NCBI GenBank assembly: GCA_944325505.1
Contig: CALVAJ010000001.1
Coordinates: 124,001-188,000 of the forward strand
Reading direction: 5' to 3'
Origin: an uncultured Bacteroidales bacterium
Lineage (GTDB): Bacteria; Bacteroidota; Bacteroidia; Bacteroidales; UBA932
Length of the DNA stretch: 64,000 nucleotides
Notes under the pieces: model-generated
Database searches by the model: none
The model's input: only the letters and a program-made list of their open reading frames with translations
Told to the model about the DNA's origin: nothing
In this document: piece after piece, positions 15,369 to 52,267 of the stretch
Numbering within the stretch: position 1 is the first letter of the stretch
Layout: every line of letters begins with the position of its first letter
Program-made: the position numbers and the translations under genes

Positions 15369-15407
15369 TTTATTGTTAATAAGAGGCAACCGATTGAAAT
15401 TTATTGT

Positions 15408-15415
15408 TAATTTTG
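15408..15415 (+). promoter_or_regulatory. Candidate -7 element (TAATTTTG) for the nagB-type gene
   Basis: This is a perfect TAnnTTTG motif 26 bases before the ATG at 15442. The hppA-nagB gap also holds two ATTGTTAAT copies (one overlapping this site) and a CAACCG/CGGTTG inverted pair, of unknown meaning. Confidence 0.4.
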
Positions 15416-15441
15416 CCGGTTGTACTAAAATTCTTAATGAT

Positions 15442-17358: not shown

Positions 17359-17387
17359 CCACTCTAACCCAACTATTATATAAACGA

Positions 17388-17421
17388 AACTCCGGAGGAT
17401 GTGAATTCTCCGGAGTTTTTC
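17388..17421 (+). terminator. Rho-independent terminator after the nagB-type gene
   Basis: AACTCCGGA (17388-17396) pairs perfectly with TCCGGAGTT (17409-17417), followed by Ts, 30 bases after the stop codon. Confidence 0.85.
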
Positions 17422-17528
17422 TTGTATTGCTGCTTTTTACTGTAGTTTAAACCATCTGCAAGGAGAAAGTAAACTTAGTAAATCGCTATATGCTAAATAA
17501 TTGGCAATTCTTGCCAGGTTTGCGGCGG

Positions 17529-17618
17529 TTACAGCCCGAAGGAGAACAGGTTTATACCGTCATAGACGGAACTGATGATTCCCAGAAGGAGCACGCCTGC
17601 AAGACAGAGCACCAGGCT
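17529..17618 (-). pseudogene. Remnant copy of the nuoN 3' end (candidate left boundary of an island)
   Basis: This 90-base stretch aligns without gaps to 37631-37720, the 3' end of nuoN, at 82 of 90 positions. It includes 42 consecutive identical bases (17577-17618). On the minus strand it encodes the last 29 residues of NuoN, from [14 protein letters not shown] to SFGL, plus the TAA stop. Most differences lie in the 48 bases nearest the stop. Similarity ends abruptly at 17619. Both copies have the same orientation, so they are direct repeats around the whole 17.6-37.6 kb PUL. The simplest reading is that this is the original nuoN end, displaced by insertion of the PUL segment. The rest of this spacer (17422-17528) holds nothing I recognise. 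Confidence 0.85.
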
Positions 17619-17649
17619 ATCAAAGTGTCCGGGAGATTCTTCTGAATCC

Positions 17650-20600
17650 TCAATATGGCCGGGAAGATTCTGGATTTCTGAATTCGGTAGGCGTGCAGGA
17701 CTTTATTTTCTTGAACACCTTAGTGAAGTATTTCAGGGAGGAAAATCCGGTCTTTTCAGATATTTCCGTGATGCTCATTGAGGTGTTTGAAAGCAACATG
17801 CAGGCTTTCTCGATTTTTTTTCTGGTAACGTATTCTATTATACTCATCCCTGTCAGCGCTTTGATTTTCTTAAACAGCAATGAGGTACTGATATTGACGC
17901 TTGCAGCTATGAAATTTACATTCAGGTCAGGAGTATCCATATTCTGGTCTATGGTTTCATCGACTTTTGTCAACAGCTTCTCGTCTGCATTGCTGAAACT
18001 TATCTGTTTATTTGTCAGGTTTTCATAAAACCGATATTTATTCCGAATAGACTCTCTCAGTTTCAGACAGTTATATATGACGGATATTAAGGCGTCGATA
18101 TCGAATGGTTTCGGGAGGAATACGTCTGCGCCTGTCTTGTATCCGGCAGCCAGATTCTGAGGGTCGCTGTATGCAGTCAGCAGAATGAAAGGGATATGGC
18201 TGATTTCCAGATTGGTCTTTACCTCATGGCAAAGCTGGAATCCGTTCATTGCAGGCATCATTACATCACTGATTATTATGTCGGGCATTCTGTCCAGAAT
18301 CGCGTTGTATCCTTTCTTCCCGTCTTCAGCCGTGTAAATATGTGCAAAATAATTACGGAGGGAGTCTTTTAAATATGTTCTCAATTCATTATTGTCTTCA
18401 ACTATCATTACAGAGATGTTTTTCAGAAAGAGCAGATCTTCAGGACCTGGTGGAACTGTTTTCCGGAGTTCAGTCAGATCTGATGCTTTATCGAGAGGCC
18501 CCTCGGCAACTGCAGATAGCGGCAAATCGAACCAGAAAGTGGCTCCTGCATGTTCATTGTTGAAGGCTCCGATCCGTCCGTTATGCAGACTGACTATTTT
18601 CTTGGCATAGGCAAGACCTATTCCGCTTCCTCCCTTATCATGGTTGCCTTGGTAGAAGTTATCGAAAATAAAGTCCATGTCGGCGTCATTTAAACCGGAG
18701 CCCATGTCGGAAACCGAGATCCTTACGAAATCTTTTTCAGGAAGGATATTGCTCCGGACAGTTGTAGTACTGCCTCTGTCGCTGAACTTCAAGGCATTCA
18801 TCAGGAGATTAGATAAAACGAAATCGCATTTTTTGCTGTCGAACTGGACTATGCCTACAGAATTGTCCGGAATAAACTCAAGGCTAATCCCGTTGTTTTC
18901 AAATTCCACTTTGAATTTTTCGCATATGTTTTTGATCCAGTCATTCAGCAAGGAATTCACAGGCACTATGTTCATGGCTCCGGTCTCGTATTTTTGTATG
19001 TCGAGAACCATGTCTATGATGTTTTTCATATGCCAGGCATTGCTGTAGGCAATTTTCAGGTGTTCTTCTACCTTACTGTTTTCGGTCTTGTGGTCTATTA
19101 TCCGCTTTAAAGGTGCGCATATAAGGGACAGTGGTGTCCTGAGCTCATGGCTGAGGCTGATCAGAAAATTGATTTTTTCCTCATTTGCCTTGCTTTTCAA
19201 TCTGGAGATTTTATGGGCATGGAGGATTTTTTCTCTCCGGACGATATAGTAGGATGTCAGACAGGCCGCCATAGCGGCGAACATGATGGCGGCAATAATG
19301 AACCATGTGCTTTTGTACCACTGCTGTCTAACATTCAGATCGCACAAGACTTGTTCTGAGCTCCATTCTCCGTCTTTTTTCAGATATGCGCAGTGTATAG
19401 CGTATTCTCCTGACGGCAGATTGTTTATAAGCAGGCTATAGTTGCTGAAATAGGAGAATACGGCTGCTCCGTCGCGGTTACGCAAGGTAAATTTGAATGT
19501 TTCTTCCGAAAACGGACGGCGGTTTCCAAGGGATGTACGTATTTCCAGCGTAGAAAAGTTATAAGGGACAGTGATATCCTGCCGGTCGGACTGTCCTGAG
19601 GTATGCGATACGGATCTGCCGTTGACGATTATGTCTGTTGGCTGGATTGAATAGTCAGGACTTGTGGTGCAGGTTATGCCTTTTTTTATATAAGAGAGAC
19701 CGTTTACTCCTCCGAATATAATGTCTCCTGAATTCAGCAGGCAATGGCAGTCGGGTGTAATTTCATTGATGTCCACTCCATCCATTTCCCCGAGTATCAT
19801 AAATTTTTTTTCCTCCGGCCAGTATATGTATATGCCCTTGTGTGTCCCGATCCAGAGCCTCCCTTCAGAATCGGTTATCAGGGATGAGGCTTCGTTGAGC
19901 AGCGGAGTAGATATTTCTTTGCATTCTCCTGATGTTTCATTGAAAAACATGAGGCCGGAGTCTGTCGCTATCCATATTGTACCGTCTGAGCCGCAGCATA
20001 TATTTCTCACATTAACAGGAATCGTTTCGCTTATTGTGTTTCTGACTCCTGATTCAATGTCATATGCCGCTATTTCGTTTTCGGTATCTATGAAGTAAAG
20101 TGTCTTGCCGTTCCGGTCCAGCGCCATGGGAGTGGAGTACCGGTTCGGGTTATGTCCTATATATGATAGCTCCCGGGTCAGAGTGTTGTACAGATGGATA
20201 TTTTCCGAGTTTACTATAATACGATCTCCGTCTTTAAGCAAGGAAACCGTTATCCCTTGTCTGGCGATTTCCTCCCTGGAGGAAGAGAAATGGAATTTTT
20301 CAGTATATCCGGAAGCCTTGTCAAGAAGATAGAAACCCCTATTATATATGTTGAAGAGTATATGCGAATCGGAATAATCGACTAAAGAGGTTACATGCAT
20401 ACCTTTAGTGGCGGCAAAATGCCGGAATTCGCCTGTTTCCGGATCCATACTGTTTATTCCTCCTCCGTCGGTCCCTATCCATATTGTTCCGGAGTCATCC
20501 TGGCAGCAGGAAAGGACGGAGCGGTTGCTAAGACCGTACCGGTTGCCATAGCTGACTTCATTATAGGATCTGGCGTAAGTAAGTTCTATATTGATCAGAC

Positions 20601-21588
20601 CTGAGCGTACACTGCCGGCCAGGATATTGTCTGCGCCGTTGAGATATAGTCTGTATATTGAATTGTCCGGAAGCGAATGCGGGTCTGAAATATTATGTCC
20701 CACAGAAGAGAAAGAGAGACTGTCCATATCCAGTATGTTGATGCCCCCTCCATCTGTTGCGAGCCACAGGTCCCCGTTGTTTTCCAGTATGTCCAGCACT
20801 ATGTCGTTTGACAGATTTGAATTGTTTGAATCGAAATGGTAAATCAATCTGTCCCCATGATAACCGTAGATGCCTTTATTGTATATGCTGCACCATAGAC
20901 GCTTGTTGGAATCTATAAAAATTTTCGTACAATTCGGGGCCTGTGGCTGCAGCAGTTTTTTCATATTGTTCCGCCGGATGTCATAAATGTATATTCCGAA
21001 CCATTTGGTGTTTATGACTATATGGTTTTCATCCATGGCAGTCATTTCCTGAAATGCAGTGTACCGGTCTCCAAGATCAATATCTGCGACATGGGCCCAT
21101 TCCCCGGATGAGCAGTCGTATTTGTACAGATTGAACCGGGAATTTACCCCTCCGGCATACAGCTCTCCACCGACAGTTATGCAAGATGCGACAAATTCGG
21201 TATCACCGGTTCCGGTTATATGCTGCCTTATGAAACAGTCGTTGGCCTTGTCGTATAGGACAAGGCCTTTGTTTGTTCCGACCCATATATTGTTTTGGGT
21301 GTCTTCAGTAATGAATCTTATTTCGTTTGATGGAATAGAGGAATCGTCACCCTGAATACAGTAATAAGGCTTGAACGTTCCGGAGATATATTTGTTGAGG
21401 CCGAATTCGGTTCCTACCCATAGCTGGCCGAAGGCGTCTATAAGAATAGCAGTCACTTTTGACTGCGACAGTCCTTGCCCTATTCCCAAAGTCGTAAACT
21501 GGATGAAGCGGTCAGTCTCAGTGGCTGCTGTTGCAGGGAAACCGAAACATCCTGTCAGAAGTATTGTAAGGGTTATCAGCAGTTTCAT
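17650..21588 (-). CDS. Hybrid two-component system regulator (HTCS) of the PUL
   Basis: This 1312-residue single-chain sensor/regulator has a signal peptide (1 to about 21) and a periplasmic two-component beta-propeller with many repeats of the form DxxGxLWVGTxxGL (to about 650). A Y_Y_Y domain and one membrane segment at about 760-783 follow. The HisKA domain has SHELRTPL with phospho-acceptor His814. The HATPase domain (DMGSGL, GGSGIGLAYAKK) follows, then a receiver with IISDVMMP and Asp1108. A C-terminal AraC-type HTH lies at about 1210-1305. It is divergent from the SusC gene at 21733 and should sense a breakdown product in the periplasm and activate that operon. It stops only 31 bases from the nuoN-remnant boundary. 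The gene is visibly AT-richer than the hppA and nuo genes. Confidence 0.96.
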   Translation of the reverse strand: MKLLITLTILLTGCFGFPATAATETDRFIQFTTLGIGQGLSQSKVTAILIDAFGQLWVGTEFGLNKYISGTFKPYYCIQGDDSSIPSNEIRFITEDTQNNIWVGTNKGLVLYDKANDCFIRQHITGTGDTEFVASCITVGGELYAGGVNSRFNLYKYDCSSGEWAHVADIDLGDRYTAFQEMTAMDENHIVINTKWFGIYIYDIRRNNMKKLLQPQAPNCTKIFIDSNKRLWCSIYNKGIYGYHGDRLIYHFDSNNSNLSNDIVLDILENNGDLWLATDGGGINILDMDSLSFSSVGHNISDPHSLPDNSIYRLYLNGADNILAGSVRSGLINIELTYARSYNEVSYGNRYGLSNRSVLSCCQDDSGTIWIGTDGGGINSMDPETGEFRHFAATKGMHVTSLVDYSDSHILFNIYNRGFYLLDKASGYTEKFHFSSSREEIARQGITVSLLKDGDRIIVNSENIHLYNTLTRELSYIGHNPNRYSTPMALDRNGKTLYFIDTENEIAAYDIESGVRNTISETIPVNVRNICCGSDGTIWIATDSGLMFFNETSGECKEISTPLLNEASSLITDSEGRLWIGTHKGIYIYWPEEKKFMILGEMDGVDINEITPDCHCLLNSGDIIFGGVNGLSYIKKGITCTTSPDYSIQPTDIIVNGRSVSHTSGQSDRQDITVPYNFSTLEIRTSLGNRRPFSEETFKFTLRNRDGAAVFSYFSNYSLLINNLPSGEYAIHCAYLKKDGEWSSEQVLCDLNVRQQWYKSTWFIIAAIMFAAMAACLTSYYIVRREKILHAHKISRLKSKANEEKINFLISLSHELRTPLSLICAPLKRIIDHKTENSKVEEHLKIAYSNAWHMKNIIDMVLDIQKYETGAMNIVPVNSLLNDWIKNICEKFKVEFENNGISLEFIPDNSVGIVQFDSKKCDFVLSNLLMNALKFSDRGSTTTVRSNILPEKDFVRISVSDMGSGLNDADMDFIFDNFYQGNHDKGGSGIGLAYAKKIVSLHNGRIGAFNNEHAGATFWFDLPLSAVAEGPLDKASDLTELRKTVPPGPEDLLFLKNISVMIVEDNNELRTYLKDSLRNYFAHIYTAEDGKKGYNAILDRMPDIIISDVMMPAMNGFQLCHEVKTNLEISHIPFILLTAYSDPQNLAAGYKTGADVFLPKPFDIDALISVIYNCLKLRESIRNKYRFYENLTNKQISFSNADEKLLTKVDETIDQNMDTPDLNVNFIAASVNISTSLLFKKIKALTGMSIIEYVTRKKIEKACMLLSNTSMSITEISEKTGFSSLKYFTKVFKKIKSCTPTEFRNPESSRPY

Positions 21589-21621
21589 GTAGTACGGTCA
21601 GTCAGTTGTCATGCACAAAAA

Positions 21622-21668
21622 TACGGAAAAACGGTTTTTTACGGAAAATTATCCATCAATATACGGAA
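21622..21668 (+). promoter_or_regulatory. Three TACGGAA direct repeats between HTCS and SusC (candidate operator)
   Basis: TACGGAA occurs at 21622-21628, 21640-21646 and 21662-21668, with start-to-start spacings of 18 and 22 bases, close to two helical turns. They lie just upstream of the candidate SusC promoter. AraC-type HTCS output domains bind direct repeats, so this is a plausible activator site. That function is inferred. Confidence 0.4.
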
Positions 21669-21698
21669 TATTGCTCCGTGGCTTTGGATAATGCAGGG

Positions 21699-21706
21699 TA
21701 ATTTTG
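21699..21706 (+). promoter_or_regulatory. Candidate -7 element (TAATTTTG) for the PUL operon
   Basis: This is a perfect TAnnTTTG motif 26 bases before the SusC ATG at 21733, downstream of the TACGGAA repeats. No canonical -33 TTTG is found at 19-21 bases, which would suit an activator-dependent promoter. Confidence 0.4.
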
Positions 21707-21732
21707 TCAAGTTAACTAACCAGATAAAAGAC

Positions 21733-24700
21733 ATGAAACATTTGAATCTTTTCGGATGTTGTTTTTTCCTGTTCCTTTTGATGGATATTGTGCCGGCTCA
21801 GGCTCAGTCGAAGCAGATGACTGTCAAAGGACAGGTAAAGGACGGAACATTCAATGACCCTCTCCCTGGAGCGAATGTCTTTATAAAGGGAACTACAGAA
21901 GGAACCGTCACTGATATTGACGGAAAGTATTCTTTGGTAGTGCCGGCCGATGGAAATACCGTTCTGGTCTTTTCCTATATAGGCTGTGTCACACAAGAAA
22001 TCTCTGTAGGATCCAGGGGCGTAATCAATGTTGTAATGCAGGATGAGTCGCAGAGTCTGGATGACGTCGTGGTGATTGCCTACGGAACGCAAAGCAAGCT
22101 GTCCGTAACGAGTGCACTGTCCACGATGGATAACAAGGATCTTGTCAAATCTCCTGTGGCCAGTATCACTAACTCTATCGCCGGCTCGATTCCGGGTGTG
22201 ACTGCTGTGCAGACGAGCGGCCAGCCTGGAAATGATGACGCAACCCTTTATATCAGAGGAAGCGGCTCGCTTGACAATTCTCTTGCCAAGCCGCTCGTGC
22301 TTGTGGATGGTATAGAAAGGGAATTTTCTCAGATCGACGCAAATGAAATAGAGAGCATTTCAGTATTGAAGGATGCTTCTGCGACAGCCGTATTCGGAGT
22401 CCGTGGCGCGAACGGTGTTATTCTCGTCACTACCAGGAGGGGAGATGTGGGTAAACCGAAGATTTCGATAAGTTCTTCGGTGGGACTGCAGCAGCCTATC
22501 TCCCTGGTTGAGCAGACAGGCAGTTATGAGTTTGCAAAATTCTGGAATATCAAGCAGAAACTTGATGGAATTACCGACGCCAGGAGATATTTTACGCCAG
22601 AGCAAATTGAAGCATACAGGACCGGTTCTGATCCTATAATGTATCCAAATGTCGACTGGATGGATTACCTTTTCAGGGATGTCTTCGTGCAGAGCAAGAA
22701 TAATGTGAACATTTCCGGCGGGAGTGAAAACGTAAGATATTTCGTATCCGTCGGCTATCTGTATCAGAACGGTTTGCTGAAGCAGCTGCCGGGACAGCCG
22801 TATGACAACAATTACAGGTATGACCGTTATAACTACAGGGCGAATATCGATGCCAAACTTTCTCCGACTACGACTCTGAAGTTCGGTGTAGGAGGGAATC
22901 TTGGCGTAAGCCGGGAACCAAGAAATGTCGTTTCCGGGACTGCCAGCAATGCCTGGGTCATCGCCCAGATATGGTCTCTGCCTTTTGCCGGTCCTGGATT
23001 CGTGGACGGAGTAAGGACCCTGGTACCTAAAGGATTTGTCCCTACTACTGAAGTTATGAGGGACGGGATGTTCGTATTTTACGGTATGGGATACAACCAG
23101 AATTACCGGACTACTTTGAATATGGATATAGATATTACCCAAAACCTGGATTTTGTTACCGATGGTCTTAGCGTATCCGTCAAAGGTGCATATGACAACG
23201 TATTCAACCTCAACAAGACGAGGGCCGGAGGTTCGGTCGAGTATCAGGAGGTGAGGTATAAGTCGTACTTCGATACTAACGGTACGATGCCCGAGACGGA
23301 TCCGTATTATGACAAGACATATGTATTCACTCCGGTCGGTTCCAATACGCCATTGTCCTATGCGGAATCATATGGCAGGGATCAGAACTGGTATGTCGAA
23401 GCAAGGTTAAACTATGACAGGACCTTCGCCGGGCATAAGGTGACAGGACTTCTTCTTTATAATCAGTCCAGAAATTATTATCCTGCCACTTATGTATATA
23501 TTCCCAGAAGCTATATCGGGCTTGTCGGAAGAGTCGGCTGGAGTTTCCGTAACAGATATATGGCGGATTTTAGTATAGGCTATAATGGCTCGGAGAATTT
23601 CGCTCCAGGGAAAACGCGCTTTGGCCTTTTCCCTTCCTTTTCAGCCGGATGGGTGATTTCCGGTGAAAACTTCATGAAGAAACAGAATGTAGTCAGTTTC
23701 TTGAAAATCAGGGCGTCATGGGGCCTTGTCGGCAATGATCAGGGCGTCAACTCCAGATTTATGTATATGCCGGAAAGGTGGTCTTCATCCGGTGGCTACA
23801 GTTTCGGCGTGAATAATCCTGTCAATAGCGAATCTTATGCAATATCTGTATACGGCAATCCGGAAGTGACATGGGAAACCGCCAGTAAATGGAATGTAGG
23901 CTTGGAAAGCACATTTTTCCAAGACAGGCTGACCTTTAACCTTGACTTGTTCCATGAGTACAGGAGCGGCATCCTCATCGCACCGCAGTCTATCCCGGAC
24001 ATAGCTGCCATATCATCTCCGAATCTTAATCTCGGGAAAGTAAGCAACAAGGGATATGAAGTCGTTCTGGGATGGAAAGACCGTATCGGAAAGAACTTCA
24101 GTTACAGCATCGATGCTAATGTTTCTTATGCCAGAAACAAGATTATATTCATGGACGAGATACCGAACGAGTATGACTATATGAACCAGACCGGCGGCTC
24201 TACAGGAAGAAACACCAATCTCTACAAGTTCATCCGGTTGTACCAATACAGCGATTTTACCGTCGGCGAGGACGGAAGTCTGGTCTTGAATCCGGATCTT
24301 CCCCAGCCGCAGTCACCTGTGTATCCTGGAGATGCCATGTATGCAGATCTGAACGGAGACAATATAGTGGACGGGGATGACCGTTTCGTGACGGGATATT
24401 CTACCCGCCCGGAATATTTCTTCGGGATCAATATAGGTGCATCATGGAAAAATCTGTCCCTTACCATGCAATGGACAGGAGCTGCCCATGTGGACAAGAT
24501 GCTGGATTTGGAGTATCGGATACCTTTCACAAATTCCGGTAACAGAGGTCTGCTCTCATATTTCTATGACGGATGCTGGACACCGGACAACCAGCAGGGT
24601 GCCATATATCCGAGACCGGCCGAGACTTCCGAAAGCTGGAACTCCGAAGCGTCTACACTATGGCTTCAAGATGCGTCCTACTTAAGGCTGAAGAATCTGA

Positions 24701-24894
24701 GCCTGACATATACTTTCAGCGGGTATGACGTTTTCAAGAAGCTGGGAATCAATTCTCTCGGTCTTACTTTCAGCGGATATAACCTGCTTACATTTACCGG
24801 ATTGAAATACATTGACCCGGAAGGTATCACGGATAACAACGGTTCTTATCCCCTTGTAAGGCTTTACAGTTTCGGGTTGAACATTAATTTTTAG
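21733..24894 (+). CDS. SusC-family TonB-dependent outer-membrane transporter (first pair)
   Basis: This 1053-residue protein has a signal peptide ending at VPAQAQ and a CNA-like domain (VKGQVKDGTFNDPLPGANVFIKG). The TonB-box region is DDVVVIAYG. The plug contains ESISVLKDASATAVFGVRGANG, and a large beta-barrel ends in FGLNINF. It has no STN domain, fitting control by the HTCS rather than by an ECF/FecR system. The open frame continues upstream into the HTCS gene on the other strand; the ATG at 21733 is the one followed by a signal peptide. It is followed after six bases by its SusD. It imports oligosaccharides with that lid protein. Confidence 0.96.
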   Translation: MKHLNLFGCCFFLFLLMDIVPAQAQSKQMTVKGQVKDGTFNDPLPGANVFIKGTTEGTVTDIDGKYSLVVPADGNTVLVFSYIGCVTQEISVGSRGVINVVMQDESQSLDDVVVIAYGTQSKLSVTSALSTMDNKDLVKSPVASITNSIAGSIPGVTAVQTSGQPGNDDATLYIRGSGSLDNSLAKPLVLVDGIEREFSQIDANEIESISVLKDASATAVFGVRGANGVILVTTRRGDVGKPKISISSSVGLQQPISLVEQTGSYEFAKFWNIKQKLDGITDARRYFTPEQIEAYRTGSDPIMYPNVDWMDYLFRDVFVQSKNNVNISGGSENVRYFVSVGYLYQNGLLKQLPGQPYDNNYRYDRYNYRANIDAKLSPTTTLKFGVGGNLGVSREPRNVVSGTASNAWVIAQIWSLPFAGPGFVDGVRTLVPKGFVPTTEVMRDGMFVFYGMGYNQNYRTTLNMDIDITQNLDFVTDGLSVSVKGAYDNVFNLNKTRAGGSVEYQEVRYKSYFDTNGTMPETDPYYDKTYVFTPVGSNTPLSYAESYGRDQNWYVEARLNYDRTFAGHKVTGLLLYNQSRNYYPATYVYIPRSYIGLVGRVGWSFRNRYMADFSIGYNGSENFAPGKTRFGLFPSFSAGWVISGENFMKKQNVVSFLKIRASWGLVGNDQGVNSRFMYMPERWSSSGGYSFGVNNPVNSESYAISVYGNPEVTWETASKWNVGLESTFFQDRLTFNLDLFHEYRSGILIAPQSIPDIAAISSPNLNLGKVSNKGYEVVLGWKDRIGKNFSYSIDANVSYARNKIIFMDEIPNEYDYMNQTGGSTGRNTNLYKFIRLYQYSDFTVGEDGSLVLNPDLPQPQSPVYPGDAMYADLNGDNIVDGDDRFVTGYSTRPEYFFGINIGASWKNLSLTMQWTGAAHVDKMLDLEYRIPFTNSGNRGLLSYFYDGCWTPDNQQGAIYPRPAETSESWNSEASTLWLQDASYLRLKNLSLTYTFSGYDVFKKLGINSLGLTFSGYNLLTFTGLKYIDPEGITDNNGSYPLVRLYSFGLNINF

Positions 24895-24900
24895 TTGGCT

Positions 24901-26670: not shown

Positions 26671-26694
26671 ACAACATCTAATATGATTGGAGAA

Positions 26695-29415: not shown

Positions 29416-29428
29416 TAAAAATAAAGCT

Positions 29429-31120
29429 ATGAAAAACATAATATTACCGGTTACAAGCCAGATTTGTCTGCTGTTATGCGTCTCATGTGATTTTCTGGAA
29501 TTCGATGAGACGAACAGCCTTAAGACGAAAGAAGACATCTATGATTACTATGCATCCACTGAGCAGATGCTCACTCATGTGTATTCTTTTATGCCTCAGG
29601 ATTTCGGTACTGTCGGAGGTGCTATGAGGGAGTGCGCCAGCGATGATGCGGAATTCGGGGATGTAGGAAGTTCTGTCCAGTATTTCAACAACGGTACCTG
29701 GTCTGCTGTCAAAACCGTGGACACAGGCTGGAGCCTATATAACGGTATCCGTGCGGCAAACCAGTTTATCGCGGAGATAGCGAATGTGGATTTTTCACGG
29801 TTCGAGCATCAGTCGAGTTATGAGAACTGGATGAAAAAACTGAAGTTCTTCCCTTATGAGGCCCGTGTCTTAAGGGCACATTATTTCTTCGAGCTTGCCA
29901 GAAGGTACGGCGATATAGCCATGCCTCTGACAGCACTGACTCCGGAAGAAGCCAACTCCATTCCCAAGACGGATTTCGATTCTGTGATAGACTTTATAGT
30001 ATCGGAGTGTGACGAGGCCGCTGCCATCCTGCCGGATACCTATCGTAACCAGCCTGATGCACAGGTCGGACGTGTTACAAGAGGATTTGCTATGGCTGTG
30101 AAGTCCAAGGCGCTTCTCTATGCTGCCAGCCCGCTACACAATCCTGACAATGATAGCGGGAAATGGAAAAAATCAGCTAAGGCAGCACTTGACATAATCG
30201 ACACAGGTCTGTATTCTCTTGATCCTAACGAGACAGCAAATAACCTGAATTCAAAGGAGATTGTACTCATGAGGGAGAATGCAGAGAATACGAACTTCGA
30301 ACTGAACAATTTTCCTGTTAGGTTTACAGAAGGCAGCAGGCCTGCAGGAAATCTGGATCGGTCGACATTCCCTTCACAGAATCTTGTGGATGCATTCGAG
30401 ACTGTCAATGGATATTCTGTAACTCTTACAGGATCAGGTTGGGTGAGCGAGGATCCCGCATTTGATCCGGCACGGCCGTATGACGACAGGGATCCCAGAT
30501 TCTATCGCAGTGTTCTTGCCAACGGGATGGAATTCAAGGGCAGCACTATAGAGACCTTTGCCGGAGGACAGGACGATGTTCCTATTACCCAGGGTGGTTC
30601 ACCTACAGGATATTTCCTGAGGAAATACATCCAGCCTACGACCAGTTTCACTCCGGACAACAAGGTGCAGAACAAGCATCATTGGGTAATCTACCGTTAT
30701 GCAGAGACGTTGCTGACCTATGCTGAGTCAATGCTCAATGCTTTCGGTTCTCCGGACTATACTGATGCCGAGTTTCCGTATTCGGCCCGCTGGGCATTGA
30801 ATGCCGTACGTAATAATGCAGGCATGCCTGAGGTCAGGGAGACTGGCAAAGAAGCATTCCTGTCCAGACTGTACAATGAGTGGAGAGTTGAATTTGCATT
30901 TGAAGATCACCGTTTCTGGGATATAAGGAGATGGAAAATCGGGGATGACACTCAGACAGAGCTTTACGGAGTGAGGATCGTTCCGGCCGGAAACGGCTAT
31001 GCATATTCGAGATTTCTTTATGAAAACAGGGTATGGAACGACAGGATGTACCTGTACCCGATACCTCAGAATGAAATTTTCAATAACCGTAATCTTGAAC
31101 CGCAGAATGTCGGCTGGTAA
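29429..31120 (+). CDS. SusD/RagB-family lipoprotein (second pair)
   Basis: This 563-residue protein has lipobox cysteine 20 (CVSC) followed by DFLEFDETNSL. It carries the SusD helices FEARVLRAHYFFELARRYGDI-like (here YEARVLRAHYFFELARRYGD) and YAETLLTYAESMLNAFGS. The HRFWDIRRWKIG motif and a PQNVGW end are also present. The ATG at 29429 begins the signal peptide; an upstream TTG overlaps the SusC end. It pairs with the short SusC 13 bases upstream and is followed by two BACON lipoproteins. Confidence 0.94.
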   Translation: MKNIILPVTSQICLLLCVSCDFLEFDETNSLKTKEDIYDYYASTEQMLTHVYSFMPQDFGTVGGAMRECASDDAEFGDVGSSVQYFNNGTWSAVKTVDTGWSLYNGIRAANQFIAEIANVDFSRFEHQSSYENWMKKLKFFPYEARVLRAHYFFELARRYGDIAMPLTALTPEEANSIPKTDFDSVIDFIVSECDEAAAILPDTYRNQPDAQVGRVTRGFAMAVKSKALLYAASPLHNPDNDSGKWKKSAKAALDIIDTGLYSLDPNETANNLNSKEIVLMRENAENTNFELNNFPVRFTEGSRPAGNLDRSTFPSQNLVDAFETVNGYSVTLTGSGWVSEDPAFDPARPYDDRDPRFYRSVLANGMEFKGSTIETFAGGQDDVPITQGGSPTGYFLRKYIQPTTSFTPDNKVQNKHHWVIYRYAETLLTYAESMLNAFGSPDYTDAEFPYSARWALNAVRNNAGMPEVRETGKEAFLSRLYNEWRVEFAFEDHRFWDIRRWKIGDDTQTELYGVRIVPAGNGYAYSRFLYENRVWNDRMYLYPIPQNEIFNNRNLEPQNVGW

Positions 31121-31155
31121 ATAAAATGTCAATAACACTAAAATATCAGGATATT

Positions 31156-32643
31156 ATGAAAAAAACGAATAAAAGAAGATATTTGGGCGGCATGCTTGCG
31201 GCCGCCCTTCTGGTACTGCCCGGATGTTATGAATATGGTATAGACAGCCAGCAGGAAATGCCTCCGCAATTCTATACCGACGCAATGGACAATTACAGTT
31301 TCACGGCCCTGTCTGCCCCATCCGTGAAATTCCAGATGAGCGCAAATACCCCATGGTCTATAGTGAGTGATAGCCAGTGGTGTATCGTAACCCCTTCAAT
31401 GAGCGCGTCAAGTTCGCTTGTTGCGGAAATAGAGCTGGCTGTAGAGGATAATCCTACAGTATCGGAAAGGAGGGCAGTCTTGACTATTTCAGCAGAAAAT
31501 GTAGATGAAACAAAGACTGTTACAGTAATCCAGGAAGCCAAGGAGGAGTTCGCCGTGGTTCCTTATGATGGTATAGTACCTTCTGGAGGAGCCCGGATTA
31601 CATTCAGGGTTATCACCAACAAGGCATGGACAGTAGTCCCTTCTGCACAGTTTCTTGAGAATATGGACAAGATGTCAGGTGAAGGCTCTGATGATCCTGC
31701 AGGAGAGGTGGTTACAGTCTCTGTTCCTGCCAATACGGCGGCCAGGCGTGAAGGTCGGATTACTGTGAAGACCGCTTTATCAGAAAAGACATTTACAGTA
31801 GTGCAGGACGGTATCGTGATAGAGGCGGCAGACCCGTTAGAGAGCGGATTTGTAGAAATGGGATCCGGCTTGCAGGAACAGGAGATAGGAATCAATGCCA
31901 ATGTAGACTGGAAAGTAACCGTTCCGGAAGAATTTGCGGGATGGATTGAAGCAGAAGCGGTCTCTGCCGATGTGCTGAAGCTGTCTACTGTCGGGTATAA
32001 CCCTATGTTCGTCCAGCGTACCGGATATGTACTGCTTGAGCCTGTTTCTCCCGTGTCAGGATTCGAACCGGTGCAGATTGCAATCAGACAGGACGTCGAA
32101 TTTACTTTTACAAGTCCGGAAGAGTGCGTAATAGACGGGAATGACGGAAAAGTCAAGGTCAGCGGAGGAAATATCGTCTCTAAATATGCATTCAGGAAAG
32201 GGCACCTTACTTTTGAGTTCGAGGAAATCCATTTTACCGATAATGCCCGGCTTTTCTTCAATATGTATACTGCTGATGCCGGTGATAACTGCAACTTTAC
32301 TTACGGATTGTCATCTGACAGTTCGACCAATAACAATACATTGAGGATTGGCGGGCATTTCGGATGGGCTGCACCTGTACCTGTGTCACTCACCAATGAG
32401 CAGATAAATACGGTAAAAAAGGTTGAATTCTATATTGAGGAGGATCCGGAAGACACAGAGAAACTCAGGATCCGGCTGCTGCTGGACGGTCAGGAGAAAG
32501 CTTCCTTTACAGGAAGGACTGACCCGTATGCCGTTGATCCTGACCTTCATGCCTCAGGTTTGCAGGTCAATCTCCAGTTCGTCATGATTCCTGACGGCAA
32601 CTATTATACTCTAAAGTCAATATCTTATGAGCCATATGAATAG
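31156..32643 (+). CDS. Multi-BACON surface glycan-binding-type lipoprotein
   Basis: This 495-residue lipoprotein has lipobox cysteine 24 (LPGC). It carries about three BACON-type repeats (roughly residues 35-125, 128-215 and 218-315), seen as recurring strands such as NTPWSIVSDSQWC, NKAWTVVPSAQF and NVDWKVTVPEEFAGW, each ending in a VxQD/E strand. A C-terminal beta-sandwich of about 180 residues follows. The position after SusD and the architecture fit a surface glycan-binding protein (SGBP) that captures polymer. The ATG at 31156 starts the signal peptide; one at 31126 is also in frame. Confidence 0.75.
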   Translation: MKKTNKRRYLGGMLAAALLVLPGCYEYGIDSQQEMPPQFYTDAMDNYSFTALSAPSVKFQMSANTPWSIVSDSQWCIVTPSMSASSSLVAEIELAVEDNPTVSERRAVLTISAENVDETKTVTVIQEAKEEFAVVPYDGIVPSGGARITFRVITNKAWTVVPSAQFLENMDKMSGEGSDDPAGEVVTVSVPANTAARREGRITVKTALSEKTFTVVQDGIVIEAADPLESGFVEMGSGLQEQEIGINANVDWKVTVPEEFAGWIEAEAVSADVLKLSTVGYNPMFVQRTGYVLLEPVSPVSGFEPVQIAIRQDVEFTFTSPEECVIDGNDGKVKVSGGNIVSKYAFRKGHLTFEFEEIHFTDNARLFFNMYTADAGDNCNFTYGLSSDSSTNNNTLRIGGHFGWAAPVPVSLTNEQINTVKKVEFYIEEDPEDTEKLRIRLLLDGQEKASFTGRTDPYAVDPDLHASGLQVNLQFVMIPDGNYYTLKSISYEPYE

Positions 32644-32647
32644 AGTT

Positions 32648-34117
32648 ATGACTAAGTTATTATTCCATTTAGGCGGTGTGGTTTCAGCCATGCTGGCTAT
32701 GGCTGCACTTCTGTCTGGCTGCGAAGAGCAGAAGGAGGAGAAGTGGGTGGATCTCAGGTACAGGGTTGAAGATTCCTATACGGTTGCTGCCCGGAATGCT
32801 GAAGAGGTGTCTTTTCTCGTCAAATCCACAGATCCGTGGGTAGTCGAGGGAAATGCGGACTGGTATGACGTCAATCCGGCTGAAGGTGGTCCGGATGAGA
32901 TATATACGGTGACAGTCCGGTGCCAGGACAACGATGATCTGGATGACAGGCGCGATACTCTCTCCATAAGGAGCGACTATTGGGTCGGGAAGAGATTCGA
33001 AATTGTTCAGAAAGGGATTGCATACCTGAATGCGGACGAAGGGGATTCCGTGATAGAAAAGACTGGAGGAACCCTGACGTTCAATATAAGGTCCAACCAG
33101 AAATGGTCTGCCGAGGTCTCTTCCGGCGAATCCTGGCTGAGTATAGTGCACGGATTTACAGGGGAGGATGACGGGCAAGTCACGGTCAGTGCTTTAACCA
33201 ACAAAGGAGAGTTGCGTGAAGGTGTCGTTACCGTATATGACAGACATGGCGAGCCTGCGCTGCTTCTTTTATGCAGCCAGGACGGTATTACATTGTCTCC
33301 GGCAATACCTGAAAATGGTAAATGGTTTGCTCTCCAGCCGGAAACCCAGACGCTTGAAATTCCTGTCGATGCTGATGTCGAGTGGACGGCCGAAAAGGCT
33401 GATCCTGATGACGATTGGTATGAAATCAGTGAAATGACTACATCGGACAGGCTTGTATTGAATGTGTCCGAACATACCGGGAAAGCAGTAAGGGAGGCGG
33501 AAATCATCATTGCTTCTGTCGCTGCCGAAGGCGCTGAACAGGTATTTAAAACCGTGAAATTCAAACAGATTAATCCGTATTATGCGGAGACGGTCTATCT
33601 GAACCAGATTATTGCTCCGGGAGCTCCGTACAATGCAGAAGGAATGTCATATGGAAAATACCTGTTCTATGTAAATGCCGGTATGACATCTACAGATTTG
33701 TTTTTCCAGATTCAGTGGAAGTGGGGGACCGGTTCCGCAGATTACTGTAATGTGCAGTACCGTATACAGAATAAGGTAGCCAAAGGCATGACAAGCCCGT
33801 GGAATACTCATATAAACTATTCCGGAGCAGGGGCGGCGTTGGACTACTATAGGACAGTTGATACTTCCCGTGGCAACGTGCTGGGTTTCCTGATAGAAGA
33901 GAATACCGACGTATCTCCGTCAATCGGCAACTTCTGTTGGTACCTTAACGGTGAAGAGGTTGCCGACATGAAGAAGATCGGGGCCGCATTCAATCCCGCC
34001 ACAATGTTCTGGGACAGAATATCTACACCTGACGGAGTCCTGTCCATCACATCAAATAGTGGCAGTGCCGTAATTGAAAAATATGATTATTACCCGCCTC
34101 TTGACTGGGGCGAATAA
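32648..34117 (+). CDS. Second BACON-domain lipoprotein, probable surface glycan-binding protein
   Basis: This 489-residue lipoprotein has lipobox cysteine 25 (LLSGC). Three BACON-like repeats are suggested by STDPWVVEGNADWYDV, NQKWSAEVSSGESWLS and DVEWTAEKADPDDDWYE. A C-terminal sandwich of about 170 residues resembles that of the preceding protein. The two genes look like diverged copies. The ATG at 32648 lies five bases after the previous stop; earlier in-frame ATGs would overlap that gene. Probable role: binding the polymer cut by the GH16 encoded next. Confidence 0.72.
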   Translation: MTKLLFHLGGVVSAMLAMAALLSGCEEQKEEKWVDLRYRVEDSYTVAARNAEEVSFLVKSTDPWVVEGNADWYDVNPAEGGPDEIYTVTVRCQDNDDLDDRRDTLSIRSDYWVGKRFEIVQKGIAYLNADEGDSVIEKTGGTLTFNIRSNQKWSAEVSSGESWLSIVHGFTGEDDGQVTVSALTNKGELREGVVTVYDRHGEPALLLLCSQDGITLSPAIPENGKWFALQPETQTLEIPVDADVEWTAEKADPDDDWYEISEMTTSDRLVLNVSEHTGKAVREAEIIIASVAAEGAEQVFKTVKFKQINPYYAETVYLNQIIAPGAPYNAEGMSYGKYLFYVNAGMTSTDLFFQIQWKWGTGSADYCNVQYRIQNKVAKGMTSPWNTHINYSGAGAALDYYRTVDTSRGNVLGFLIEENTDVSPSIGNFCWYLNGEEVADMKKIGAAFNPATMFWDRISTPDGVLSITSNSGSAVIEKYDYYPPLDWGE

Positions 34118-34127
34118 AAAGTCGTTT

Positions 34128-35234
34128 ATGAAAAAGATGATACTCAGCATTATTGCTTTGACAGGTGTGCTTGTCCTGGGCTGCACTTGTTCGAGGGAAG
34201 GGAATACAACATATGACAATGATTATCCTTTATCTTCGTTTGCCGTGGCGATAGGCGAATCGTACTATCACGCCAATATCAATCAGGAAGACAGAATTAT
34301 AGAGATTGGTCTGATTTCAAATACCAATTATATAACAGGAGTCGAGTACGTTTTGGGAAAAGGTGCGGAGTCTGTTTCTCCTGATCCTGAATCGTTCCTT
34401 GGAGAATGGGATATGGAGCAGACCATGACGGTTGTTATGAAGGATGGAAGCAAGGTCGCATATACTATAAGATTCCCTGAATATGACTCTTCTATGGAAG
34501 GCGTGATATTCTATGATGACTTCGATACTGACGGAAATCCTGACGAATCGAAGTGGCAGCTATGGAAACGCGGAACGAGCGAGAGCAACGAGGAACAGTC
34601 TGAAAGCTATGATTATGCGTATGTGAAAGACGGCAATCTGGTCCTTGTGGCCGACAAAGAAAACGGCGAATACAAATCTGGTGGAATAATGACCAAGGAC
34701 AAGTTCTCGTTCACTTTCGGTACGGTAGAGGTGCGAGCGAGGATTACAAGGCATCCGGACGGGAATTTCCCTGCAATCTGGATGATGCCTCAGATCCCGT
34801 ATTACAATGAACCCAATCCTATAAGCGGGGAAATCGATATAATGGAACACATAAAGCAGGAAGCATTTGTATATCAAACAATCCATACGAATTATACATT
34901 CAATCTGAAAATAAAGGATCCATCCAATCTTGCGACACCGGCATGTGATATCGATGAATACAATGTTTATGGCATGACATGGACAGAAGACTGTATTTCC
35001 TTTTCTTTGAACGGGCAGACTACACTTGAATATCCGAATCTGAGGCTTTCTGACGAAGCGGAAAAGAAACAGTGGCCTTTTACGGCAGAGTCATCGTTTT
35101 ATCTGATACTGAACATGTCGCTCGGCAGCGACAGACCGAATTCTTGGCCAGGACCGATAGATGATGCCGGTCTCCCTGCCATAATGGAGGTGGACTGGGT
35201 AAAAGTATATGAACCAGATACTAAAAATAAATAA
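34128..35234 (+). CDS. Glycoside hydrolase family 16 endo-beta-glycanase, lipoprotein
   Basis: This 368-residue lipoprotein has lipobox cysteine 19 (LVLGC). An N-terminal Ig-like domain of about 100 residues precedes a GH16 domain with FYDDFDTDG, GTVEVRARI and PAIWMMP. The catalytic signature is GEIDIMEH, with nucleophile Glu235, Asp237 and acid/base Glu240. The five-residue ExDxxE spacing is the laminarinase-like GH16 form, which includes endo-beta-1,3-glucanases and endo-beta-1,4-galactosidases acting on mucin-type glycans. The predicted anchor suggests it cuts polymer at the cell surface for SusCD import. The pairing with a GH20 favours a GlcNAc-containing galactan, but the specificity cannot be proven from the sequence. 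Confidence 0.92.
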   Translation: MKKMILSIIALTGVLVLGCTCSREGNTTYDNDYPLSSFAVAIGESYYHANINQEDRIIEIGLISNTNYITGVEYVLGKGAESVSPDPESFLGEWDMEQTMTVVMKDGSKVAYTIRFPEYDSSMEGVIFYDDFDTDGNPDESKWQLWKRGTSESNEEQSESYDYAYVKDGNLVLVADKENGEYKSGGIMTKDKFSFTFGTVEVRARITRHPDGNFPAIWMMPQIPYYNEPNPISGEIDIMEHIKQEAFVYQTIHTNYTFNLKIKDPSNLATPACDIDEYNVYGMTWTEDCISFSLNGQTTLEYPNLRLSDEAEKKQWPFTAESSFYLILNMSLGSDRPNSWPGPIDDAGLPAIMEVDWVKVYEPDTKNK

Positions 35235-35236
35235 TC

Positions 35237-35914
35237 ATGAAAAGGACAGTTTGCTTATTGTTGATTTTTGTTTCTTTTATTGCGATGGGTCAGTCTCCTC
35301 GAAAGGCGAAATGGAATTTTAATGACCTTGATGGATGGGTGTATTGTCATCAGGATGACAATCCTGAGAAACAGTGCGCGGCAGAGAAAGGAAAACTTCG
35401 GATATTTACACGGAAAGGAAGTGCCGACCGGAAAAAAATGAGGACTGAAGACAGGATATATACTACCGGAAGATATAAATGGAGAGCCTATATTTCAGAC
35501 ATTGCGGAGGGAGACCAGACAAGTATAGGGTGTTGGCTATACTGCGATGACAAACATGAGATAGATTTCGAAGTGGGTCCTGGAAAAACTGCTGCAAGGG
35601 CTGCAGCAGGAGCCGGGCCAGAGGATATGATCGTGTATATGACGACGCAGGGCAATCCTTACAATACCAAATTCATCCCGATCAGTACAGGTTGGCATAT
35701 TTTTGAACTTGATCTGACTTCCGTAGATGGGAAATATAAGGTTGAATGGATTATAGACGGGAAAGTCCAAAGTACAGTGCAGCAGACGTTCGGACCGGAA
35801 GTCGCTTTTTACATATACTGCAGTGTAGAGAATCTTAAATTCCTCGGAGAACATCCTGCTTCGCAGGACAATTACGGTTTGTTTGACTATGTAGAATATG
35901 TGTATCATGAATAG
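35237..35914 (+). CDS. Small GH16-like / concanavalin-A-like lectin-fold secreted protein
   Basis: This 225-residue protein has a signal peptide (MKRTVCLLLIFVSFIAMGQ) without a lipobox cysteine. The body is a single beta-sandwich with GRYKWRAYI, SIGCWLYCDD and HEIDFEV, where Glu108-Ile-Asp110-Phe-Glu112 matches the shorter ExDxE GH16 motif. A late WIIDG strand and DYVEYVY complete a GH16-like order. It is much shorter than the preceding GH16 and starts two bases after it. It could be a minimal periplasmic GH16 or a non-catalytic lectin. It overlaps the GH20 start by eight bases, so they are surely co-transcribed. Confidence 0.6.
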   Translation: MKRTVCLLLIFVSFIAMGQSPRKAKWNFNDLDGWVYCHQDDNPEKQCAAEKGKLRIFTRKGSADRKKMRTEDRIYTTGRYKWRAYISDIAEGDQTSIGCWLYCDDKHEIDFEVGPGKTAARAAAGAGPEDMIVYMTTQGNPYNTKFIPISTGWHIFELDLTSVDGKYKVEWIIDGKVQSTVQQTFGPEVAFYIYCSVENLKFLGEHPASQDNYGLFDYVEYVYHE

Positions 35915-37550
35915 ATTGAAAAGATATCTGGCTGCCTCCGTGTCGGTGTTTGCAATAATGTCACAGATTTGCGCTGCGGAAATAAACCTTGTACCTGTTC
36001 CTCGGAAATGCATGGAACGCAGCGGCACCTTTATGCTGACTCCAGACACGAAGATATGCCTGTCGCCTCGTTCTGACGGTATGATGACGGCCGTTTCATC
36101 GTGGAACAGCCTGATGGTATCGTCATTCGGGAAAGCCTTGGCTGTCATTCCTGAACAGAATTCAGCAGGATCAATCAGATGTATCCTGACTGATGAGATT
36201 GAGAATCCGGAAGGATACAGACTTGAAGTGACCGGGTCTTCCGTTACGATACATGCCCGGAATCCTGCAGGAGTTTTCTACGCTTTTCAGACTCTCAGAC
36301 AGCTGTTGCCTCCCGAGGCGGAAAATATTGCCCGTGACAAGCCAGCTGACAGTTTCAGCATCCCGTGTCTTGAAATAGAAGATAGTCCGGAGTTCCCGTA
36401 TAGAGGTATCATGCTGGATGCTGCACGGCATTTCATTCCTAAGGAAGAAGTGAAAACCTGTATTGATATCATGGCTTTTCACAAGCTCAATGTCCTCCAT
36501 TGGCACCTTACGGATGATCAGGGCTGGAGGATTGAAATAAAGAAATATCCGAAACTTACGACTGTAGGTGGATTCAGAGACAAAACAATAATAGGACATG
36601 CCCGCGGGCCTAAACCGTATAAATGGAATATGTCAAGATATGGCGGCTTCTATACTCAGGAGGATATCAAGGAGGTGCTTGATTATGCTGAAGAAAGGTT
36701 CGTTACTGTGATTCCCGAGATAGAGATGCCAGGACACAGTGTGGCTGCATTGTCTGCATATCCTGAGTATTCATGTTCCGGAGGCCCGTTCGAAGTCGAA
36801 GGCAGATGGGGTATATTCAATGATGTGTTCTGTTGTAAGGAGAAGACTTTCGGATTTTTACAGGATATTCTTGATGAGGTGACCGCGTTGTTCCCTTCGG
36901 AGTATGTTCATATCGGCGGTGATGAGTGCCCGAGGGTCAGGTGGGATAATTGTACGCATTGTCAGGCGAGAATGAAAGAAGAGGGTCTCTCTTCCAGCAA
37001 TGATCTGCAGATATATTTTATGAACAGAATAGAAGAGTATCTCAACTCCAAGGGCAAACGTATTATCGGATGGGATGAGATAATGGACGGGGACATATCC
37101 GGACGGGCTGTTGTTATGTCCTGGCGAGGAGAAAAAGGTGGGATCAAAGCCGCCAAAAATGGTTATGATGCCATAATGACACCGAATGAATATATGTATT
37201 TCAACAGGTACCAGTATGATCCGTCTTTAGAGCCTTTAGCAAACGGAGGCTTTGTCCCGTTGGAGAAGGTATATGATTATCATCCAGTTCCGGAGATTCT
37301 CAATGATGAAGAAGCCCGACATATTAAAGGAGTACAGGCAAATTTATGGACTGAATATATTACGTCTGAAGACCAGTTGGAATATATGTTGTTTCCGAGA
37401 ACTGCCGCTTTGTCTGAAGTTGCATGGAGTTGTCCTGAAAACCGGAACTATGACAACTTTCTGCAAAGACTTCCATTGATATTGAAACACTATTCTGCGA
37501 TGGGAATAAACTACTGCAGATGGATTTTCAGTTCCAGGGAAGATAAATAG
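35907..37550 (+). CDS. Glycoside hydrolase family 20 beta-N-acetylhexosaminidase
   Basis: This 547-residue protein has a signal peptide ending near ICAAE. An N-terminal GH20b domain (to about 150) is followed by the (beta/alpha)8 domain with YRGIMLDAARHF, HWHLTDDQGWR and VIPEIEMPGHS. The catalytic pair is in HIGGDECP: Asp339 (polarises the substrate acetamido group) and Glu340 (acid/base). The enzyme removes terminal beta-linked GlcNAc or GalNAc and should act in the periplasm. It is the last gene of the PUL and is followed by a strong two-way terminator. The ATG at 35907 overlaps the previous stop; one at 35898 is also possible. Confidence 0.95.
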   Translation: MNRLKRYLAASVSVFAIMSQICAAEINLVPVPRKCMERSGTFMLTPDTKICLSPRSDGMMTAVSSWNSLMVSSFGKALAVIPEQNSAGSIRCILTDEIENPEGYRLEVTGSSVTIHARNPAGVFYAFQTLRQLLPPEAENIARDKPADSFSIPCLEIEDSPEFPYRGIMLDAARHFIPKEEVKTCIDIMAFHKLNVLHWHLTDDQGWRIEIKKYPKLTTVGGFRDKTIIGHARGPKPYKWNMSRYGGFYTQEDIKEVLDYAEERFVTVIPEIEMPGHSVAALSAYPEYSCSGGPFEVEGRWGIFNDVFCCKEKTFGFLQDILDEVTALFPSEYVHIGGDECPRVRWDNCTHCQARMKEEGLSSSNDLQIYFMNRIEEYLNSKGKRIIGWDEIMDGDISGRAVVMSWRGEKGGIKAAKNGYDAIMTPNEYMYFNRYQYDPSLEPLANGGFVPLEKVYDYHPVPEILNDEEARHIKGVQANLWTEYITSEDQLEYMLFPRTAALSEVAWSCPENRNYDNFLQRLPLILKHYSAMGINYCRWIFSSREDK

Positions 37551-37556
37551 GTCTTA

Positions 37557-37612
37557 AAACGAATCCGGCGGTTCTAATCATATACAGATAATTAGAACCG
37601 CCGGATTCGTTT
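37557..37612. terminator. Long perfect inverted repeat, bidirectional terminator between GH20 and nuoN
   Basis: A 22-base arm (37557-37578, running AAACGAATCCGG to TTCTAAT) pairs perfectly with 37591-37612 around a 12-base loop. It is seven bases after the GH20 stop and 19 bases from the nuoN stop. The A-rich and T-rich ends would let it stop both convergent transcripts. It lies within the candidate island's right end. Confidence 0.85.
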
Positions 37613-37630
37613 CAGGACCAGGTTATGCCA

Positions 37631-37720
37631 TTACATCCCGAAACTGAACAGGTTTATGCCGTCGTAGACGGAGCTGACGATTCCCAGAAGGAGCACGCCT
37701 GCAAGACAGAGCACCAGGCT
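37631..37720 (-). repeat. nuoN 3'-end direct repeat, right-hand copy (candidate island boundary)
   Basis: This is the partner of 17529-17618. Bases 37679-37720 are identical to 17577-17618 over 42 bases. The 48 bases towards the stop codon differ at eight positions. In this copy the sequence is the functional 3' end of nuoN. Insertion within the 42-base identical core would leave the displaced old end at 17.5 kb and a new, island-supplied end here. Confidence 0.85.
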
Positions 37721-50964: not shown

Positions 50965-51179
50965 GCAAGAAATACGCTCCTCCGTATATGAACCGTTGAT
51001 TATTTGGGCGTTACTCCCCACAAATTGCTATGTGGCTGCATTTCTATCCCAATAACCAATGATTCCTGCGCGATTCCGCTCTTTTCTGATGTGACGCAGA
51101 TTTTCTGTTTTTCGGACACACCAGCGTACATGGAATGGACTTTAAATGTCTGATAATATGATGATTACAGTTTTAGACA
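50965..51179. other. Gene-free spacer between feoAB and the RAYT unit
   Basis: I find no open frame with coding character, no RNA gene and no terminator with a T-run. A GCGTACATGG near 51124 faintly resembles the flanking elements of the transposase unit that follows. Confidence 0.5.
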
Positions 51180-52258: not shown

Positions 52259-52267
52259 ATTTTTGGA

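Follow-up and report, generated by a model that had tools for sequence, protein, structure and literature searches.

A polysaccharide utilization locus probably inserted at the nuoN 3' end of an uncultured Bacteroidales bacterium, with the old gene end displaced

How does a complete polysaccharide utilization locus (PUL) come to lie between two copies of the end of a respiratory gene? The question is raised by a 64,000-nucleotide stretch of DNA (the window) from an uncultured Bacteroidales bacterium of the UBA932 lineage (assembly GCA_944325505.1, contig CALVAJ010000001.1, positions 124,001 to 188,000; genome G000), in which about 20 kb separate the two nuoN ends and a nagB-like gene lies beyond the left one. 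The genes between the repeats code, in this order, for a hybrid two-component system (HTCS) regulator, SusC, SusD, SusC, SusD, BACON, BACON, a family 16 glycoside hydrolase (GH16), a 225-residue protein and a GH20 enzyme. The regulator, the SusC/SusD pairs and the glycan-active enzymes of one complete HTCS-type PUL are thus all present, as a first-pass annotation made from the sequence alone had read them. That annotation proposed that the PUL is an island inserted into nuoN, and the evidence assembled here supports that an insertion very probably took place and displaced the old nuoN end.

The two nuoN-end copies (coordinates in Table 1) match at 82 of 90 positions in the same orientation and share an identical 42-base core, a claim of the first-pass annotation that proved exact. 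The right copy forms the genuine nuoN end, as confirmed by TIGR01770, and the left copy is an orphan in which the nuoN body is absent and the TAA stop codon is retained. A search of the genome (54 contigs, 92% complete) returned these two nuoN-end copies and no further match at E <= 0.001, and a 28-base core pattern with up to three mismatches retrieved the same two copies only. Exact 24-mer direct repeats in the window are found within the two nuoN ends and in one pair at 59.9 kb, nothing else; at the latter place, positions 59888-60030, lies a 33-base exact repeat with a spacing of 110 bases. Orphan and attached end have no mismatch in their first 42 bases and eight in their last 48. These eight differences bring two conservative residue changes near the end of the protein (Ile to Val and Leu to Met), which leave it nearly unchanged, and the new nuoN end can therefore work as coding sequence. 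On the stop-distal side the bases AACCTGG (nuoN sense) are possibly common to both copies. Examined as an inverted-repeat recombinase site, the core offers arms of only 5 bases around a 13-base spacer, which is not convincing.

The state of the locus before insertion is documented by relatives of the genome, which is itself Cryptobacteroides-like. A search of named genomes yielded 40 loci, the closest mostly from Candidatus Cryptobacteroides together with other Bacteroidales, and 16 were examined for gene order. In 5 of the 16, nuoN has nagB downstream; the remaining 11 end inside or soon after nuoN or have no nagB within the available 10 kb. Two of the five are empty sites of the kind predicted by the first-pass annotation, in which nagB follows nuoN directly: L046 (Candidatus Cryptobacteroides avicola), with 178 bp from stop to stop, and L034, with 124 bp. 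The nuoN-nagB gap carries a GH127 gene in L033 (2.2 kb) and in L036 (3.1 kb) and other genes in L035 (5.8 kb), and the PUL of the window is found in none of the five. Since the contents differ among these loci, the gap that separates the two convergent genes is a variable one, which has taken up 20 kb in the window. Note that nuoN was detected at E <= 1e-150 in only 42 of 400 genus genomes, the nuo operon being therefore patchy in the genus.

The orphan is most likely the displaced native nuoN end. It adjoins nagB, which is the place of the native end in both empty sites, and this position is a stronger argument than the sequence, whose support is modest. Compared with the real nuoN end of L046, the orphan has 6 mismatches in 90 bases and the attached end 8 in 90. 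Among 31 distinct nuoN ends of relatives the nearest to the orphan is that of L046 (6/90), the attached end coming next (8/90); the nearest to the attached end are L046 and the orphan, tied. At the eight positions where orphan and attached end differ, L046 agrees with the orphan at five (42, 75, 76, 77 and 84 from the core start), among which a single serine codon accounts for three; the remaining positions (47, 56 and 62) go with the attached end. The codons at the nuoN end of L046 and the bases past it fit the orphan better than the attached end. The expectation that the old gene end would be found on the far side of the island, and a new, slightly different end on nuoN, is thus supported by the empty sites, the position of the orphan and the mismatch counts.

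The island interior is foreign and was probably acquired horizontally. Its G+C content is 0.46 versus a mean of 0.508 (standard deviation 0.027) in 170 two-kb bins of other G000 stretches, where 8 bins (4.7%) are as low. Matched segments of other SusC, SusD, GH20 and HTCS genes, taken from other G000 stretches and from the window at position 4.8 kb, have a G+C content of 0.49-0.57. At third codon positions it is 0.42-0.56 in the island genes (the start of the first SusC gene being estimated), versus 0.60-0.73 in the nagB, pyrophosphatase, nuoL, nuoM and nuoN genes and in one resident SusC gene. The AT-richer interior that had been noticed in short samples is borne out by the G+C content both overall and at third codon positions.

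The protein relatives point in the same direction. GH20 has relatives at E <= 1e-120 in 340 of the 400 genus genomes, the own genome included, and identity over the aligned part is at most 56%, mostly 43-54%, among the matches listed. For the first BACON protein the best match in another genome of the genus sample reaches 38%, and one genome of another family in the order sample (n = 393) reaches 45%. No close relative is present among the matches listed for the genus sample. The order SusC1-SusD1-SusC2-SusD2-BACON1-BACON2-GH16 recurs in four other loci (G457, G381, G266 and, as a diverged resident copy, contig 8 of G000); the PUL type is therefore an established one, and this copy looks imported from an unsampled source. 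The contig 8 locus (L143 and L191) is a diverged PUL with double SusC/SusD, BACON and GH16 genes accompanied by HTCS and GH20 genes, and its matched genes in L143 have a host-like G+C content of 0.51-0.52. The search for a vehicle gave no match of the left 90-base copy to phages, of the right copy to plasmids, of the first BACON protein to plasmids or of GH20 patterns to viral contigs, and no exact match of a degenerate nuoN-tail pattern to viral contigs.

The distribution of differences bears on where the island was joined to nuoN. Zero mismatches in 42 bases followed by eight in 48 has a probability of 0.005 under uniform placement. In 14 relatives the per-site variation is 0.281 in the first 42 bases and 0.214 in the last 48; because relatives vary more in the first part than in the last, the 42-base identity is unlikely under one shared history. 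All eight mismatches lie outside the core, and a crossover in or beside it is therefore suggested. On this comparison of the two ends, the core was probably shared recently and the outer parts probably derive from different nuoN alleles. A change of ancestry is also seen further up nuoN, where divergence from L046 rises from 9/743 upstream to 47/691 downstream of a best split at 38321 (permutation p 0.0005).

Such changes are not confined to nuoN, as the chromosome around the island is a recombination mosaic. Relative to L046 and the genome taken to be its own (G091), the nuo operon is 96-97% identical, and nagB and the pyrophosphatase gene are 84-85% identical; patches in the nuo operon switch to L033 at 97-100%. 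Outside the window, 400 bins of 250 bp from aligned pieces of at least 800 bp (0.34 Mb of G000 versus 0.59 Mb of G091) have a median identity of 84.4% to G091, and 55 of them reach at least 97%. The pyrophosphatase gene (window 13310-15370) is about 98% identical to L035, 96-98% to L036 where its contig reaches and about 84% to L046; the change is abrupt where the gene borders nagB, and the gene is read as a recombined tract. In L038 the last ~170 nuoN bases are common to L035, L036 and L037 (2-5% apart) and the preceding stretch is ~15% apart, which defines another recombination boundary. A 1.2-kb segment of the window (51055-52266; G+C 0.42), which codes for a 290-residue IS200/Y1-transposase-like protein and has about 25 bp at its counterpart in the L046 genome, is probably a recent insertion.

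A boundary close to the core is found in L033 (Candidatus Cryptobacteroides faecipullorum). Its nuoN end (11345-11434) departs from that of L046 at the core, and the GH127 gene lies behind it. Divergence from L046 is 3.6% over ~660 bases before the core and 28.6% after; the best split falls at +20 from the core start, with 0 of 400 permutations as strong, and the likelihood estimate at -1 (range -10 to +23). No orphan end was detected in L033, and the GH127 gene that L036 has in the corresponding gap is 78% identical to the one here. That L033 represents a further clean insertion with tail swap was considered and rejected, given that no orphan was detected and that the GH127 gene is possibly ancestral, and the locus is counted as a recombination boundary. 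The break may be a tail swap like that of the window, or it may mark the place at which homology, and with it a recombined tract, ends.

None of the ten main island proteins is an integrase, in agreement with the first-pass annotation, and none is a transfer protein. The HTCS stop is only 31 bases away from the core, and a hairpin fills the opposite island end. Seven tyrosine-recombinase matches are present in G000, all on contigs other than that of the window. Neither the window nor the stretches that follow nuoN in 31 distinct relatives (11 of 5.9-10 kb, 17 of 1.25-1.5 kb and three below 500 bp) code for a homologue of these seven, a search in which serine integrases were not screened outside the island. 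A nuoN-end profile run on the 42 nuoN-bearing genomes found a second strong copy in G000 and in none of the other 41; the match in G360 is marginal, partial and in another reading frame (E 0.007). Other islands at the same nuoN end, envisaged at the outset, were not found by their orphan ends in these 41 genomes, and the core was not found elsewhere in G000 (92% complete).

The mechanism that we propose is the following. A complete HTCS-controlled PUL, acquired horizontally, would have been inserted at the nuoN 3' end, between nuoN and nagB, by a join through or beside the 42-base stretch that starts 90 bases before the nuoN end. The island would have supplied its own slightly different last nuoN bases, and nuoN would have stayed whole because the island brought this end along. 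The native last 90 bases would have been pushed 20 kb off, to their present place between the HTCS gene and nagB, with the stop codon kept. Strand exchange would have been carried out by host homologous recombination, with a circular form crossing over once in the core or through a one-sided event anchored in nuoN, in a lineage whose chromosome was already a patchwork of recombined tracts and with no integrase involved. The first-pass annotation had left mobilisation in trans, loss of the integrase and homologous recombination all open; we lean to the last and favour it, with modest confidence, over an integrase acting in trans. For the one-sided model, the ancestry break at ~38.3 kb would fit the anchor, but the 42-base identity exceeds what that model needs.

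Several points weigh against this account. The attached end, with 8/90 differences from L046, is not detectably more diverged than the nuoN sequence preceding it (39/644), and the best split within the last 734 nuoN bases is not significant (p 0.27). On the nuoN side, therefore, the crossover may have taken place at ~38.3 kb instead of in the core. Of the eight informative positions, the orphan agrees with L046 at no more than five. The recombination model leaves unexplained how a circle or fragment carrying the PUL and just the last 90 bases of nuoN came about. The 42 bases of the core are close to the minimum length that homologous recombination requires, and direct repeats at the 3' ends of genes are classically a sign of site-specific integration. 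Homology-facilitated illegitimate recombination, in turn, is called rare where it is discussed for other loci (PMC5361080).

Site-specific integration, in which the 42-base repeats would be the cores of attL and attR and the integrase lost or supplied in trans, is accordingly the possible though not likely alternative that deserves most attention. The island would then resemble a remnant of the cis-mobilizable element (CIME) type, elements described as keeping attL and attR after the loss of the genes for integration and transfer (PMC5704250). In favour speak a layout like that reported for e14 in icd (PMC6379469), in which repeats in direct orientation mark the 3' end of the gene, the element restores this end and the native one is displaced, and the seven tyrosine-recombinase matches on other contigs. 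Against it stand the lack of an integrase or transfer gene in an island whose ends are already filled, of homologues of the seven tyrosine recombinases, be it in the window or past nuoN in the 31 relatives, and of a second strong orphan in 41 other genomes, as well as the negative searches for the core elsewhere in the genome, for the left copy in phages, for the right copy in plasmids and for the nuoN-tail pattern in viral contigs. A broader proposal, which we regard as doubtful, would make the nuoN 3' end a reusable docking site in the clade, where bare PUL cassettes (regulator to last enzyme, without mobility genes) bearing spare nuoN ends move in and out at the 42-base core with the help of the host's recombination machinery or of a recombinase encoded at another locus; if so, the departing nuoN end of L033 with its extra glycosidase would be a second use of the site.

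Other explanations place the event elsewhere or deny it. The donor may already have had the nuoN-PUL-orphan arrangement, copied into G000 by homologous recombination in the flanks, the insertion being then older than the lineage. The last half of nuoN, which is 6-7% from L046, does have a separate ancestry, and mosaicism at several scales is found in the flanks; but the arrangement is found in none of the sampled genomes and its import would merely shift the insertion event to another genome, so that we consider this improbable. A misjoin of two strains or species at a short repeat could be imagined in a draft of 54 contigs whose flanks differ in ancestry. However, the window contains no N, and the repeat falls short of the longest word sizes customary in assembly. 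Joining the core falsely could not alone yield the junction between HTCS gene and core, and other stretches of the genome likewise have a mosaic ancestry; an artefact is very improbable. Finally, the first-pass annotation had named a larger decayed second nuo operon as a finding that would overturn its reading. Such a remnant, or an ancestral duplication, is hardly credible as the source of the left copy: the match extends over only ~90 bases, it is flanked by the HTCS gene and nagB, and the candidate is contradicted by the two-copy result of the genome search, the empty sites and the lack of a second strong orphan in the other 41 nuoN-bearing genomes.

Insertion at the nuoN end, by whichever route, delivered an island whose outer genes stand tail to tail with their neighbours at both ends; judging from this orientation, neither neighbouring transcription unit should be disturbed. 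The strong hairpin between GH20 and nuoN is likely a two-way terminator; of the terminator first proposed there, the hairpin stands and termination in both directions is an interpretation of it. The short hairpin just past the orphan stop is perhaps the old nuoN terminator. The first SusC gene probably starts later than its open reading frame, which overlaps the HTCS gene. The first BACON protein had no solved-structure relative at E <= 0.001. The four best solved relatives of the GH16 enzyme are 6t2r, 6t2o, 6t2p and 6t2s, which are among six structures (6T2N to 6T2S) deposited with a paper on endo-acting O-glycanases of gut bacteria (PMC7419316). The PUL likely serves the use of mucin-type O-glycans, to judge from the sequence similarities of GH16 and GH20. 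It resembles the mucin O-glycan PULs with GH16 endo-O-glycanases presented in that paper in its HTCS, SusC/SusD, putative surface glycan-binding proteins and GH16 enzyme, and differs from them by the double SusC/SusD pair and the added GH20 (PMC7419316).

Table 1. Features of the nuoN-nagB region (window coordinates)
Feature	Position	Strand	Basis
nagB-like gene (glucosamine-6-phosphate deaminase-like, 661 aa), left flank	15373..17358	+	NF002557, 844 bits; directly after nuoN in L046 and L034
Terminator-like hairpin after nagB	17386..17419	+	Consensus scan
Short terminator-like hairpin just past the orphan stop, now downstream of the HTCS gene	17502..17516	-	Consensus scan
Orphan (most likely displaced native) nuoN 3' end with stop codon	17529..17618	-	Repeat alignment and empty-site comparison
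42-base identical core, left copy	17577..17618	-	Repeat alignment, 24-mer repeat scan
HTCS sensor-regulator, 1312 aa	17650..21588	-	Reg_prop, Y_Y_Y, HisKA, HATPase, response regulator, AraC HTH
SusC-like TonB-dependent transporter 1 (start overlaps HTCS)	21475..24894	+	Domain match
SusD-like protein 1	24895..26670	+	Domain match
SusC-like transporter 2	26683..29415	+	Plug domain; ~30% identity to SusC1
SusD-like protein 2	29393..31120	+	Domain match
BACON-domain protein 1, putative surface glycan-binding protein	31126..32643	+	Domain match
BACON-domain protein 2	32627..34117	+	Domain match
GH16 enzyme with N-terminal DUF4971	34074..35234	+	Domain match
225-aa protein	35237..35914	+	No Pfam match
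GH20 beta-hexosaminidase	35898..37550	+	Domain match; best solved relative 6q63
Strong hairpin between convergent GH20 and nuoN	37543..37626	.	-48.4 kcal/mol, z = -11
nuoN, 477 aa; last bases probably the island-borne end	37631..39064	-	TIGR01770
Attached, probably island-borne, nuoN 3' end	37631..37720	-	Repeat alignment and empty-site comparison
42-base identical core, right copy	37679..37720	-	Repeat alignment, 24-mer repeat scan
Estimated ancestry breakpoint inside nuoN, ~1% to ~7% divergence from L046 (range nominal)	38300..38340	.	Best split 38321

PULs are thought to spread among gut Bacteroidales largely on elements that resemble integrative and conjugative elements (ICEs). At the nuoN locus a whole PUL entered with no mobility gene found inside it. 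Both the site and its old state can be read from the orphaned gene end, and the empty sites of sister species allow a comparison of before and after. The locus suggests that metabolic cargo can enter at the ends of conserved operons, places where homology runs out, in this clade, whose members recombine across species. A survey of mobile elements of the gut devotes a section to PULs and names enzymes for mucin sugars, GH20 among them, as present on such elements (PMC6907783). By its own account it reported islands only if they carried a transposase or an integrase or showed relatedness to a prophage or an ICE, and an island like that of nuoN was probably left out because of this criterion (PMC6907783).

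The pattern as such is known; the case stands out by its bare PUL cargo and by its site, for which a full-text search found, in the library covered, no earlier report of nuoN as the integration site of a genomic island. The closest likeness is to e14 in icd of E. coli, where, as described, the element is also inserted near the 3' end of a housekeeping gene, supplies a near-identical gene end and leaves the old one on its far side (PMC6379469). The completing and orphaned repeats, the empty sites in relatives and the newly supplied gene end are all seen at nuoN; a cognate integrase was not found. The displaced old end measures 163 bp in icd and 90 bp here, and e14 is a prophage that integrates site-specifically, whereas the nuoN island consists of a PUL only, with no recombinase found (PMC6379469). 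With CIMEs as outlined in PMC5704250 the island has in common flanking repeats, putative att sites in the present case, and the lack of detected integration and transfer genes; it differs in that no related ICE or integrative and mobilizable element was found at the nuoN end, neither in the 41 genomes screened for orphans nor, as far as tyrosine recombinases tell, in the 31 stretches downstream of nuoN, which are mostly of at most 1.5 kb. Displaced gene ends are also described from effector loci of the type VI secretion system (T6SS) and from Rhs loci, with homology-facilitated illegitimate recombination as the proposed origin; they are alike in that new DNA beside a conserved anchor displaces the old downstream part and leaves an orphan (PMC5361080). 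The parts displaced in the T6SS and Rhs loci treated there are immunity genes or variable 3' regions (PMC5361080), whereas at nuoN a conserved respiratory gene is host to metabolic cargo.

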